Assembly (NCBI GenBank): GCA_946699065.1
Contig: CAMPDV010001252.1
Span: forward strand, 59,317-123,316
Direction: 5' to 3'
From: Loxodes magnus
Lineage: Eukaryota > Ciliophora > Karyorelictea > Loxodida > Loxodidae
Length of the DNA: 64,000 nt
The first letter of the stretch is position 1. Every line of letters begins with the position of its first letter. Under the pieces are notes generated by a model, which was given only the letters and a program-made list of their open reading frames with translations, was not told the DNA's origin and made no database searches. A program made the position numbers and the translations under genes. Shown one piece after another: positions 1 to 64,000 of this stretch.

Positions 1-3000
1 GAAGTTATGATTATACGGTGAGACTATGGGACGTCAAGACAGGTACCTGTAAGACCATGAGTGGTCACACTAGTTGTGTATGATCTGTGGCTATATCCAG
101 TGATTCAGAGTTCATCGTATCGGGAAGTGCAGATTATACGGTGAGGACTATGGGGACGTCAAGACAGGTACCTGTAAGACCATGAGTGGTCACACTAGTC
201 ATGTATGATATGTGGCTATATCCAGTGATTCAGAGTTCATCGTATCGGGAAGTTATGATTATACGGTGAGACTATGGGACGTCAAGACAGGTACCTGTAA
301 GACCATGAGTGGTCACACTAGTTCTGTATGATATGTGGCTATATCCAGTGATTCAGAGTTCATCGTATCGGGAAGTTATGATTATACGGTGAGACTATGG
401 GACGTCAAGACAGGTACCTGTAAGACCATGAGTGGTCACACTTGTTGTGTATGATCTGTGGCTATATCCAGTGATTCAGAGGTTCATCGTATCGGGAAGT
501 TATGATTATACGGTGAGGACTATGGGACGTCAAGACAGGTACCTGTAAGACCATGAGTGGTCACACTAGTTCTGTATGATATGTGGCTATATCCAGTGAT
601 TCAGAGTTCATCGTATCGGGAGTTATGATTATACGGTGAGACTATGGGACGTCAAGACAGGTACCTGTAAGACCATGAGTGGTCACACTAGTTCTGTATG
701 ATATGTGGCTATATCCAGTGATTCAGAGTTCATCGTATCGGGAAGTTATGATATACGGTGAGACTATGGGACGTCAAGACAGGTACCTGTAAGACCATGA
801 GTGGTCACACTAGTTGTGTATGATCTGTGGCTATATCCAGTGATTCAGAGTTCATCGTATCGGGAAGTTATGATTATACGGTGAGACTATGGGACGTCAA
901 GACAGGTACCTGTAAGACCATGAGTGGTCACACTAGTGTTGTATATGCTGTGGCTATATCCAGTGATTCAGAGTTCATCGTATCGGGAAGTTATGATTAT
1001 ACGGTGAGACTATGGGACGTCAAGACAGGTACCTGTAAGACCATGAGTGGTCACACTAGTTGTGTATGATCTGTGGCTATATCCAGTGATTTAGAGTTCA
1101 TCGTATCGGGAAGTTATGATTATACGGTGAGACTATGGGACGTCAAGACAGGTACCTGTAAGACCATGAGTGGTCACACTAGTTCTGTATGATCTGTGGC
1201 TATATCCAGTGATTCAGAGTTCATCGTATCGGGAAGTTATGATTATACGGTGAGACTATGGGACGTCAAGACAGGTACCTGTAAGACCATGAGTGGTCAC
1301 ACTAGTTGTGTATGATCTGTGGCTATATCCAGTGATTCAGAGTTCATCGTATCGGGAAGTTATGATTATACGGTGAGACTATGGGACGTCAAGACAGGTA
1401 CCTGTAAGACCATGAGTGGTCACACTAGTCATGTATGATATGTGGCTATATCCAGTGATTCAGAGTTCATCGTATCGGGAAGTGCAGATTAGACCGGTGA
1501 GACTATGGGACGTCAAGACAGGTACCTGTAAGACCATGAGTGGTCACACTAGTTGTGTATGATCTGTGGCTATATCCAGTGATTCAGAGTTCATCGTATC
1601 GGGAAGTTATGATTATACGGTGAGACTATGGGACGTCAAGACAGGTACCTGTAAGACCATGAGTGGTCACACTAGTTGTGTATGATCTGTGGCTATATCC
1701 AGTGATTCAGAGTTCATCGTATCGGGAAGTGCAGATTATACGGTGAGACTATGGGACGTCAAGACAGGTACCTGTAAGACCATGAGTGGTCACACTAGTC
1801 ATGTATGATCTGTGGCTATATCCAGTGATTCAGAGTTCATCGTATCGGGAAGTTATGATTATACGGTGAGACTATGGGACGTCAAGACAGGTACCTGTAA
1901 GACCATGAGTGGTCACACTAGTTGTGTATCTGCTGTGGCTATATCCAGTGATTCAGAGTTCATCGTATCGGGAAGTTATGATTATACGGTGAGACTATGG
2001 GACGTCAAGACAGGTACCTGTAAGACCATGAGTGGTCACACTAGTCATGTATGATATGTGGCTATATCCAGTGATTCAGAGTTCATCGTATCGGGAAGTT
2101 ATGATTATACGGTGAGACTATGGGACGTCAAGACAGGTACCTGTAAGACCTTGAGTGGTCACACTAGTTGTGTATCTGCTGTGGCTATATCCAGTGATTC
2201 AGAGTTCATCGTATCGGGAAGTTATGATTATACGGGTGAGACTATGGGACGTCAAGACAGGTACCTGTAAGACCATGAGTGGTCACACTAGTGTTGTATC
2301 TGCTGTGGCTATATCCAGTGATTCAGAGTTCATCGTATCGGGAAGTGCAGATTAGACGGTGAGACTATGGGACGTCAAGACAGGTACCTGTAAGACCATG
2401 AGTGGTCACACAAATTAGGTATCTGCTGTGGCTATATCCAGTGATTCAGAGTTCATCGTATCGGGGAAGTTATGATTAGACGGTGAGACTATGGGACGTC
2501 AAGACAGGTACCTGTAAGACCATGAGTGGTCACACTAGTTGTGTATGATCTGTGGCTATATCCAGTGATTTAGAGTTCATCGTATCGGAAGTTATGATTA
2601 TACGGTGAGACTATGGGACGTCAAGACAGGTACCTGTAAGACCATGAGTGGTCACACTAGTTCTGTATGATCTGTGGCTATATCCAGTGATTCAGAGTTC
2701 ATCGTATCGGGAAGTTATGATTATACGGTGAGACTATGGGACGTCAAGACAGGTACCTGTAAGACCATGAGTGGTCACACTAGTTGTGTATCTGCTGTGG
2801 CTATATCCAGTGATTTAGAGTTCATCGTATCGGGAAGATTATGATTATACGGTGAGACTATGGGACGTCAAGACAGGTACCTGTAAGACCATGAGTGGTC
2901 ACACTAGTGTTTGTATATGCTGTGGCTATATCCAGTGATTCAGAGTTCATCGTATCGGGAAGTGCAGATTAGACGGTGAGACTATGGGACGTCAAGACAG

Positions 3001-4565
3001 GTACCTGTAAGACCATGAGTGGTCACACTAGTGTTGTATATGCTGTGGCTATATCCAGTGATTCAGAGTTCATCGTATCGGGAAGTGCAGATTATACGGT
3101 GAGACTATGGGACGTCAAGACAGGTACCTGTAAGACCATGAGTGGTCACACTAGTTGTGTATGATCTGTGGCTATATCCAGTGATTTAGAGTTCATCGTA
3201 TCGGGAAAGTTATGATTATACGGTGAGACTATGGGACGTCAAGACAGGTACCTGTAAGACCATGAGTGGTCACACTAGTTGTGTATGATCTGTGGCTATA
3301 TCCAGTGATTCAGAGTTCATCGTATCGGGAAGTTTATGATTATACGGTGAGACTATGGGGACGTCAAGACAGGTACCTGTAAGACCATGAGTGGTCCACA
3401 CTAGTCATGTATCTGCTGTGGCTATATCCAGTGATTCAGAGTTCATCGTATCGGGAAGTTATGATTATACGGTGAGACTATGGGACGTCAAGACAGGTAC
3501 CTGTAAGACCATGAGTGGTCACACTAGTTGTGTATGATCTGTGGCTATATCCAGTGATTCAGAGTTCATCGTATCGGGAAGTGCAGATTAGACGGTGAGA
3601 CTATGGGACGTCAAGACAGGTACCTGTAAGACCATGAGTGGTCACACTAGTCATGTATGATATGTGGCTATATCCAGTGATTCAGAGTTCATCGTATCGG
3701 GAAGTTATGATTATACGGTGAGACTATGGGACGTCAAGACAGGTACCTGTAAGACCATGAGTGGTCACACTAGTGTTGTATATGCTGTGGCTATATCCAG
3801 TGATTCAGAGTTCATCGTATCGGGAAGTGCAGATTAGACGGTGAGACTATGGGACGTCAAGACAGGTACCTGTAAGACCATGAGTGGTCACACTAGTGTT
3901 GTATGCTGTGGCTATATCCAGTGATTCAGAGTTCATCGTATCGGGAAGTGCAGATTAGACGGTGAGACTATGGGACGTCAAGACAGGTACCTGTAAGACC
4001 ATGAGTGGTCACACTAGTTGTGTATGATCTGTGGCTATATCCAGTGATTTAGAGTTCATCGTATCGGGAAGTTATGATTATACGGTGAGACTATGGGACG
4101 TCAAGACAGGTACCTGTAAGACCATGAGTGGTCACACTAGTTCTGTATGATCTGTGGCTATATCCAGTGATTCAGAGTTCATCGTATCGGGAAGTGCAGA
4201 TTAGACGGTGAGACTATGGGGACGTCAAGACAGGTACCTGTAAGACCCATGAGTGGTCACACTAGTTGTGTATCTGCTGTGGCTATATCCAGTGATTCAG
4301 AGTTCATCGTATCGGGAAGTTATGATTATACGGTGAGACTATGGGACGTCAAGACAGGTACCTGTAAGACCATGAGTGGTCACACTAGTTCTGTATGATC
4401 TGTGGCTATATCCAGTAGATTCAGAGTTCATCGTATCGGGAAGTTATGATTATACGGTGAGACTATGGGACGTCAAGACAGGTACCTGTAAGACCATGAG
4501 TGGTCACACTAGTAATGTATAATCTGTGGCTATATCCAGTGATTCAGAGTTCATCGTATCGGGGA
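1..4565 (+). pseudogene. WD40 array segment with many frameshifts (possibly assembly errors)
   Basis: This holds the same 41-codon WD40 units, but the frame is broken by about twenty small indels. Examples are extra G in GGGG (about 155, 2463, 3358, 4218, 4562), GAGG (about 145, 512), ACCGG (1489) and ACGGG (2234). Others are a missing A (618), a missing T (751), an extra T (2910, 3331), an extra C (3395, 4246) and a two-base loss (3902). Almost all are homopolymer changes. The near-identical copy from about 18826 to 23380 carries the same order of units but few of these indels, and none after 20458. I therefore infer that they are mostly uncorrected read errors and not real pseudogenisation. 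In-frame stop triplets occur at codons 7, 9 and 27 as elsewhere. If the indels are real, this segment is a degraded array. Confidence 0.6.
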
Positions 4566-63400: not shown

Positions 63401-64000
63401 TGTAAGACCATGAGTGGTCACACTAGTTGTGTATGATCTGTGGCTATATCCAGTGATTCAGAGTTCATCGTATCGGGAAGTTATGATTATACGGTGAGAC
63501 TATGGGACGTCAAGACAGGTACCTGTAAGACCATGAGTGGTCACACAAATTAGGTATCTGCTGTGGCTATATCCAGTGATTCAGAGTTCATCGTATCGGG
63601 AAGTTATGATTAGACGGTGAGACTATGGGACGTCAAGACAGGTACCTGTAAGACCATGAGTGGTCACACTAGTTGTGTATGATCTGTGGCTATATCCAGT
63701 GATTCAGAGTTCATCGTATCGGGAAGTTATGATTATACGGTGAGACTATGGGACGTCAAGACAGGTACCTGTAAGACCATGAGTGGTCACACTAGTTCTG
63801 TATGATCTGTGGCTATATCCAGTGATTCAGAGTTCATCGTATCGGGAAGTTATGATTATACGGTGAGACTATGGGACGTCAAGACAGGTACCTGTAAGAC
63901 CATAAGTGGTCACACACATTATGTATATGCTGTGGCTATATCCAGTGATTCAGAGTTCATCGTATCGGGAAGTTATGATAAGACGGTGAGACTATGGGAC
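58676..64000 (+). CDS. WD40-repeat protein, internal part running off the window (needs reassigned stop codons)
   Basis: This segment has 1,775 codons in one frame up to the last base, which completes the WD dipeptide (W32-D33) of a unit. The Val11 codons at 59012 and 63194 are exactly 34 units apart, so no indel lies between them. It starts just after an extra A near 58675. The mix of alleles is the downstream type: many GHIDYV units, many TAA codons at position 7 followed by Lys18, and many HTN-TAG units. Near the end is a rare [11 protein letters not shown] unit with SGSYDKT (62302), copied 1,599 bp later (63901). No terminator, C-terminal domain or 3' end is present, so the gene or array continues beyond 64000. 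Translation depends on the same code reassignment as the other segments. Confidence 0.58.
62050..62401 (+). repeat. Short duplicated block with the rare ISGHTHYV unit, copy A
   Basis: This holds the unit with ATA at codon 1 and ACA-CAT-TAT at codons 5-7 (start of ATA context at 62302), followed by SGSYDKT. The same run is found exactly 1,599 bp (13 units) later. Confidence 0.85.
63650..64000 (+). repeat. Short duplicated block with the rare ISGHTHYV unit, copy B (cut by window end)
   Basis: Partner of 62050-62401 at +1,599 bp; the TCT-GTA-TGA-TCT cassettes at 62198 and 63797 and the ATA codons at 62302 and 63901 keep the exact offset. It continues past the window end. Confidence 0.83.

Follow-up and report, generated by a model that had tools for sequence, protein, structure and literature searches.

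Reassigned stop triplets at hypervariable codons of a giant WD40 array in the ciliate Loxodes magnus and a possible link to a family of recognition receptors

The stretch of the Loxodes magnus genome analyzed here (hereafter the window: 64,000 nucleotides, positions 59,317-123,316, that is, the right part, of the 123,316 bp contig C1252, CAMPDV010001252.1) is, from its position 1 to 64,000 and on the forward strand, a head-to-tail array of 123 bp units that each encode one WD40 repeat and often contain an in-frame stop triplet. These triplets appear to be sense codons located at hypervariable positions of sensor blades that were probably amplified from a gene family of recognition receptors resembling the fungal NACHT-WD40 (HNWD) proteins; we assign this joint interpretation a probability of roughly 0.7.

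The stretch was cut into units at a conserved anchor and the codons were tabulated by register, with numbering from the G of GHT, so that codon n here is codon n+2 in the initial annotation of this DNA. There are 520 anchors and 519 units in the window, 476 of them exactly 123 bp long. The same array fills all 123,316 bases of C1252, both ends of which are open, with a total of 1,001 units, 953 full-length and 48 off-length (43 of these in the window); the off-length units were excluded from all counts of stops by codon. Among the full-length units of the window, 391 of the 394 in-frame TAA, TAG and TGA triplets fall on codons 5 (TAG 64, TAA 33, TGA 13), 7 (TGA 170, TAA 41) and 25 (TAG 70), the other three being two TAA at codon 38 and one TGA at codon 40. 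Across the contig, these three codons hold 745 of 749 stops, and at least one stop triplet is found there in 656 of the 953 units. The tabulation thus confirms the clustering that the initial annotation had described for its codons 7, 9 and 27. The four outlying stops of C1252 (codons 38, 38, 14 and 40) adjoin other out-of-phase codons, which is what paired indels would give, and once 24 units in which over four backbone codons had changed are set aside, the 929 kept units contain 744 stops at codons 5, 7 and 25 and a single one elsewhere. About 0.19 of the single changes that create a stop lie in these codons; the probability that all six distinct stop variants are located there is p ~5e-5 if they are independent, a rough value because the units share ancestry.

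Such strict confinement is a property of the C1252 array. Elsewhere in the 705,730,643-base (705.7 Mb) assembly, over which all genome-wide counts were taken, TGA is present at Trp30 in 1,555 exact matches; codon 23 of units in genes can also be TGA; an array on contig C43 has one stop triplet at codon 37 (TGA); and in samples of a second WD40 family, codon 41 can be TGA and codons 15 and 33 are TAG in a few cases. The initial annotation's view that other unit codons are spared therefore holds, with nearly no exceptions, in C1252 but not outside it, where the TGA at Trp30 is a silent change. Among the first 100 of the 1,555 places listed, this TGA-for-TGG replacement clusters on contigs C21 and C29.

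Conserved genes of the same organism use all three triplets as sense codons. The best HSP70 frames are open over their full length with TAA and TAG inside, the best full-length rows carrying 4-11 TAG and 11-20 TAA each, and tubulin rows carry TAA, TAG and TGA in frame. An alpha-tubulin that aligns end to end with the 449-residue chain 6u0h_A (L015) has TAA, TAA and TAG at Gln31, Gln133 and Gln358, respectively, and a beta-tubulin piece (L046) has TGA exactly at Trp21 and Trp101 of the PDB chain. Sixteen TGA triplets are found in seven tubulin pieces: five at the Trp21 site, six at the beta-tubulin Trp101 site and five elsewhere in divergent copies; divergent tubulin copies have TGA at the Trp21 site as well. 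In the aligned conserved genes, TAA and TAG occupy Gln positions and TGA occupies Trp positions. These alignments show the in-frame stop triplets to be sense codons, TAA and TAG encoding Gln and TGA encoding Trp, in agreement with NCBI translation table 27. Table 28 has the same sense readings as table 27, and the two are not told apart by these data, whereas table 31, which reads TAA and TAG as Glu, clashes with the observed Gln positions. Hence, among the three tables suggested in the initial annotation, 27 fits, 28 is equivalent in its sense readings and 31 fails, and the claim that the triplets are sense codons is borne out by the HSP70s and tubulins, which do not use the standard code. 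The code itself is already known and not new: table 27 was reported as the karyorelict nuclear code, in which TAA and TAG stand for Gln and, inside genes, TGA stands for Trp, as here (PMC4967479, PMC11441545), and applied to the 706-Mbp macronuclear assembly of Loxodes magnus (PMC11441545). In this code, TGA close to the poly-A tail also serves as the end of genes. The HSP70 matches are arranged head to tail, with a spacing of about 2.8 kb on C45, 2.2 kb on C86 and 2.1 kb on C854, where they are broken into pieces. The tubulin matches are numerous (150 scored of 258 candidates); they are clustered, in both orientations, on C64 and also occur on many small contigs.

The stop-bearing codons belong to a small hypervariable set that matches the sites selected in fungi. 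In the WD40 repeats of HNWD proteins, codons 7, 9, 25 and 27 are reported to be under diversifying selection (PMC1805685), and a gapless fit, by eye, of the HET-E repeat as printed in PMC12222747 to the window unit puts these sites at codons 5, 7, 23 and 25. Codons 5, 7 and 25 are three of these four, and the fourth, codon 23, also varies here. In C1252, the four codons hold 58% of the amino acid entropy, a share equalled by 5 of 101,270 sets of four codons; in six arrays, they hold 57-69% as against 10% expected. Equally good sets number 4 of 101,270 in the C43 array, which belongs to the window's family (47 units), and, out of 111,930, 9 in C119 (107 units), 192 in C6957 (78 units), 5 in C9 (30 units) and 7 in C1503 (105 units), the latter four being partial and mutually non-independent samples of the second family, which has a different backbone. 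Additional variation is found at codons 4 and 8 and, in the second family, at codon 41. Between the variable codons, codon 6 is GTA in all 953 C1252 units and codon 24 is GAT in 950 of them. There are 55 amino acid combinations across the four codons in C1252, and 49 of the 72 pairings of common left and right blocks of the units are present, so that left and right blocks assort. A third WD40 family (GHENwVVAIALSNDTKWIVSGSGDRTIRVWDFNTGSCTRTLK) is present in every probe from 200,001 to 376,260 on contig C272, perhaps as an array of at least 176 kb, and varies, by eye, at the same sites.

A block of seven units (window positions 21,694-22,554, forward strand) is modelled as a seven-bladed WD40 beta-propeller (mean predicted local distance difference test score, pLDDT, 93.8; predicted template modelling score, pTM, 0.89), with a query TM-score (template modelling score) of up to 0.94 among the PDB matches listed (5mzh). 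In this model, codons 5 and 7 are located just before and at the start of strand a, whereas the segment linking strand b to strand c contains codons 23 and 25; in the fungal proteins, the loops bearing these codons have been placed on the interaction face (PMC1805685). The hypervariable codons, including 4 and 8, would accordingly be positioned at loops that form the partner-binding top face in the fungal relatives. The HNWD proteins of Podospora anserina, HET-D, HET-E and HET-R, as described in PMC1805685, PMC12222747 and PMC2873952, share with the Loxodes units the high internal identity of the repeats, diversity at the same four codons, in two pairs each flanking a conserved residue, and, as the Loxodes data are read here, exchange and homogenization of units. 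They differ in having HET and NACHT domains, whereas the Loxodes genes described below have a kinase or a Cys-rich start plus a linker, and in having about 10-12 such repeats in reactive alleles, compared with about seven blades in the Loxodes genes and up to 1,000 units or more in the arrays. The Highly-Repetitive WD40 proteins described for prokaryotes, protists and fungi (PMC5587647) likewise consist of young repeats in which variation is limited to sites such as predicted interaction hotspots; the words "ciliate", "Tetrahymena" and "Paramecium" are absent from the main text of that paper.

An anchor search shows that the unit also occurs in lone copies, within short genes for a single propeller. 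In one of these (L076, P0001), a kinase domain (PF07714, 1e-50) is joined through a linker to WD40 blades that include units of the window type, and the C-terminus is common to another locus, L072; two more loci, L074 and L077, are mere fragments that lack the linker and hold one to three units. A search with the linker (150 residues) yielded at least 150 matches, the best 150 among 2,246 first-look candidates; every one has an E-value below 1e-48, and together they are located on 135 contigs. On contigs C1-C300, 19 of 29 minus-strand linker matches have their start no more than 30 kb from the low end of the contig compared with 0 of 13 plus-strand matches, so that many linker genes point at a nearby contig end; two matches on C2 lie deep inside the contig. 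At the ends of C16 and C43, complete genes encode about seven blades and a conserved C-terminus and are followed by A+T-rich DNA and other tandem repeats; at these two ends, the complete short genes rule out that linker genes continue directly into giant arrays at their 3' side. A tandem repeat, KVRKEDRISAF..., and its relatives are found in the probes L078 and L079 (ends of C16 and C43) and in the C512 probes L070 and L071; this repeat lies beyond the short genes at contig ends and could be subtelomeric.

Upstream of the linker, a kinase is present in four of six further genes (on C16, C27, C31 and C209), that is, in five of the eight inspected genes altogether (PF07714 on P0001, L080 and L084; a BLAST match in L082 and L085), and none is evident in the part of the upstream sequence that was read for C43, C10 and L072. 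The C43 and C10 genes have a Cys-rich start that is RING-like by eye and has no Pfam match, and L072, which is N-terminally cut, resembles the C43 type by eye. With respect to NACHT or HET domains, Pfam searches on the upstream parts of four genes gave kinases in two and no match in two, and neither domain is among the best 25 of 39 families for P0001 and of 35 for L072, both N-terminally cut. The joining of a kinase to a WD40 propeller is also seen in bacterial proteins of the PkwA type; in comparisons of both fold and sequence, PkwA (PDB 5yzv, named a Ser/Thr kinase) and a repetitive propeller (2ymu) rank among the nearest solved structures. The identity is about 42-44%. To our knowledge, no giant arrays are known for either.

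Genes and arrays share the unit backbone and, in one case, a private variant. In 18 units from six lone-copy loci (three of them from the fragments L074 and L077), variation is greatest at codons 23, 7, 4, 25, 5 and 8, and TGA is found at codons 7 and 23, TAG at 5 and 25, and TAA at 7, with two more TAA at 35 and 36. The C1252 array has 138 distinct units, and two L072 units are three bases away from the nearest of these, with every difference in a variable codon; for other units, the distance is 1 to 23 bases, partly outside the variable codons. The private variant is a C43 gene unit (78 bp) that recurs in nine exact copies in a neighbouring array, which shares its contig and strand and comes as close as 12 kb; the only further exact copy in the genome is on C6165. 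The linker match on C6165 scores equal to that of C43, and this contig may be the other haplotype of the region.

Codon choice differs between variable and invariant sites. Wherever Gln or Trp occurs at codon 5, 7 or 25 of C1252, it is written with a reassigned codon, whereas the invariant Trp30 is TGG in 953 of 953 units. Genome-wide, in exact matches within fixed sequence contexts, codon 7 is TGA in 62,983 cases and TGG in 2 (the units copy one another, so that 62,983 is not the number of origins), codon 25 is TAG in 98,562 and CAG in 475, and codon 30 is TGG in 378,156 as against the 1,555 TGA. This split does not reflect average codon use: in seven genes or gene pieces of the organism itself, TAA or TAG is used for 101 of 158 Gln and TGA for 6 of 15 Trp. 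The reassigned spelling may be partly mutational, TAT, TCA, TTA and AGA being one step from TAA, TAG or TGA and more steps from CAA, CAG or TGG; from other C1252 codons, codon 7 has 4 one-step routes to reassigned codons and 0 to standard ones, codon 25 has 3 and 1, and codon 5 has 3 and 3. Given the even routes at codon 5, a purely mutational reason is only partial, and since both kinds of codon are open to TGT and AAG, a small number of founders must also contribute through descent.

The interpretation favored here would combine these observations as follows. The stop triplets would cluster because the backbone is homogenized between copies, so that varying Gln and Trp are confined to a few hypervariable codons. 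The array would be an amplified pool of sensor blades from a large family of short genes in which a kinase or Cys-rich N-terminus is followed by the linker common to the family, by some seven WD40 blades and by a conserved C-terminus, a plan seen in the few genes inspected. We infer that these genes encode recognition receptors under diversifying selection, NLR-like and working like the HNWD proteins, which act in non-self recognition and cell death, and that arrays and genes exchange units.

Several observations weigh against this interpretation. In minimal codon networks of variants present in at least 2 of the 929 kept C1252 units, there are 15 replacement and 2 silent steps at codons 5, 7, 23 and 25 (30 and 6 available) and 22 and 8 at the other 37 codons (255 and 78 available), so that no excess of replacement over silent steps was found at the four variable codons. 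Neither ratio is clearly off opportunity; the density of steps is, with 17 in 4 codons versus 30 in 37. The backbone variants look neutral, and one of them, G21E, is present in 64 of 953 units, which suggests that the array copies are weakly constrained at present. The TGA at Trp30 indicates that reassigned codons are not wholly excluded from the backbone. A genome-wide search for exact copies of one L072 unit (78 bp) found none elsewhere, so that the arrays are not its exact donor. Third-position G+C is 0.42-0.48 in the arrays versus 0.10-0.27 in the seven own genes or pieces, and at two 5' array edges (C9 and C119) neither the linker nor a shared leader was found beyond a 43-bp DNA match (E 7e-4), on which ground a common leader was rejected. 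Array composition and missing leaders favor satellite DNA or an archive over giant genes. As for the proposal in the initial annotation that the triplets are under selection, the agreement of the variable codons with those selected in fungi and their recurrence in arrays and short genes speak for it, but a replacement excess is not seen.

The strongest alternative, to which we give about even odds, is that the arrays are satellite DNA, that is, sensor-exon units spread by unequal exchange and untranslated, in which the stop pattern was inherited and is kept by homogenization. This explanation denies only expression of the arrays and so overlaps with the receptor interpretation. The sheer abundance of the units is consistent with it: an exact 26-bp piece of the unit that includes the Trp30 TGG is present in 378,156 copies, which at 123 bp each puts the window array's family at about 46 Mb or more of the genome. 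The unusual third-position composition, the lack of a clear leader and the neutral appearance of backbone changes point in the same direction, as do the 231 Mb of tandem repeats reported for the macronuclear assembly (PMC11441545), under which the WD40 arrays would come. It is less easily reconciled with frames that remain unbroken for 14,309 and 10,824 codons, the longest shift-free runs in C1252, and in 47 of 47 units of C43, with the different repertoires of different arrays at the same codons, or with the array end on C9 (~16,325, L042), where, in this one case, Trp30 is turned to TGA and A+T-rich DNA follows, resembling a gene end.

That the window is part of one giant gene, with a protein of more than 40,000 residues, is unlikely. 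Such a gene would account for the single strand and single frame maintained over 123 kb apart from the off-length units, 47 of 48 of which are in three clusters. In window coordinates converted from the contig and on the forward strand, these clusters extend over 63-4,625 (mostly one-base indels; this one starts left of the window), 12,129-20,487 and 52,960-58,741, and the longest frame-intact run of the window, 20,454-52,926, has 265 consecutive anchors spaced exactly 123 bp and is open under table 27. However, no start, leader or C-terminal cap is seen in C1252, whose ends are open, and in the two complete gene ends, on C16 and C43, the propeller part comprises about seven blades and is capped by a conserved C-terminus. 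Evidence for higher-order repetition within C1252 is weak, the best lag of 153 units giving 13% identical units versus a mean of 5.6%.

Local hypermutation rather than selection also seems an improbable source of the diversity at the variable codons. Silent variants within codon 5 (TAG/TAA, AAT/AAC) and the lack of a replacement excess per opportunity are compatible with it, but codons 6 and 24, although located between variable ones, barely vary at any base, the same codons vary in the second family on a different backbone, and the same codons are under diversifying selection in fungi, as reported in PMC1805685. Finally, random decay of a standard-code pseudogene, against which the initial annotation had argued and to which only the three frameshift clusters would lend support, is refuted by the tubulins and HSP70s with all three triplets as sense codons and by the 745 of 749 stops on three codons.

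A further-reaching scenario, which we regard as doubtful, is that the tens of Mb of WD40 units in Loxodes serve as a stored archive of parts for receptors, from which kinase or Cys-rich genes near contig ends would refresh their blades by gene conversion with nearby arrays, and that the loss of dedicated stops widened the set of residues reachable in one step at hypervariable codons. A search of open PubMed Central, supplements aside, for WD40 together with karyorelict or Loxodes found no paper on this gene family or on amplified blades, and the words WD40 and kinase are absent from the main text of PMC11441545.

Altogether, the stop-bearing variable array hints at a large repertoire of recognition receptors in Loxodes. 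If this is the case, a ciliate far from fungi would have diversified the same four propeller codons, although joined to different N-terminal domains, and would have done so in hundreds of thousands of units. A genetic code without dedicated stops would then shape the residues used by a recognition surface, and some 46 Mb of a genome reported to be rich in tandem repeats would acquire an identity.

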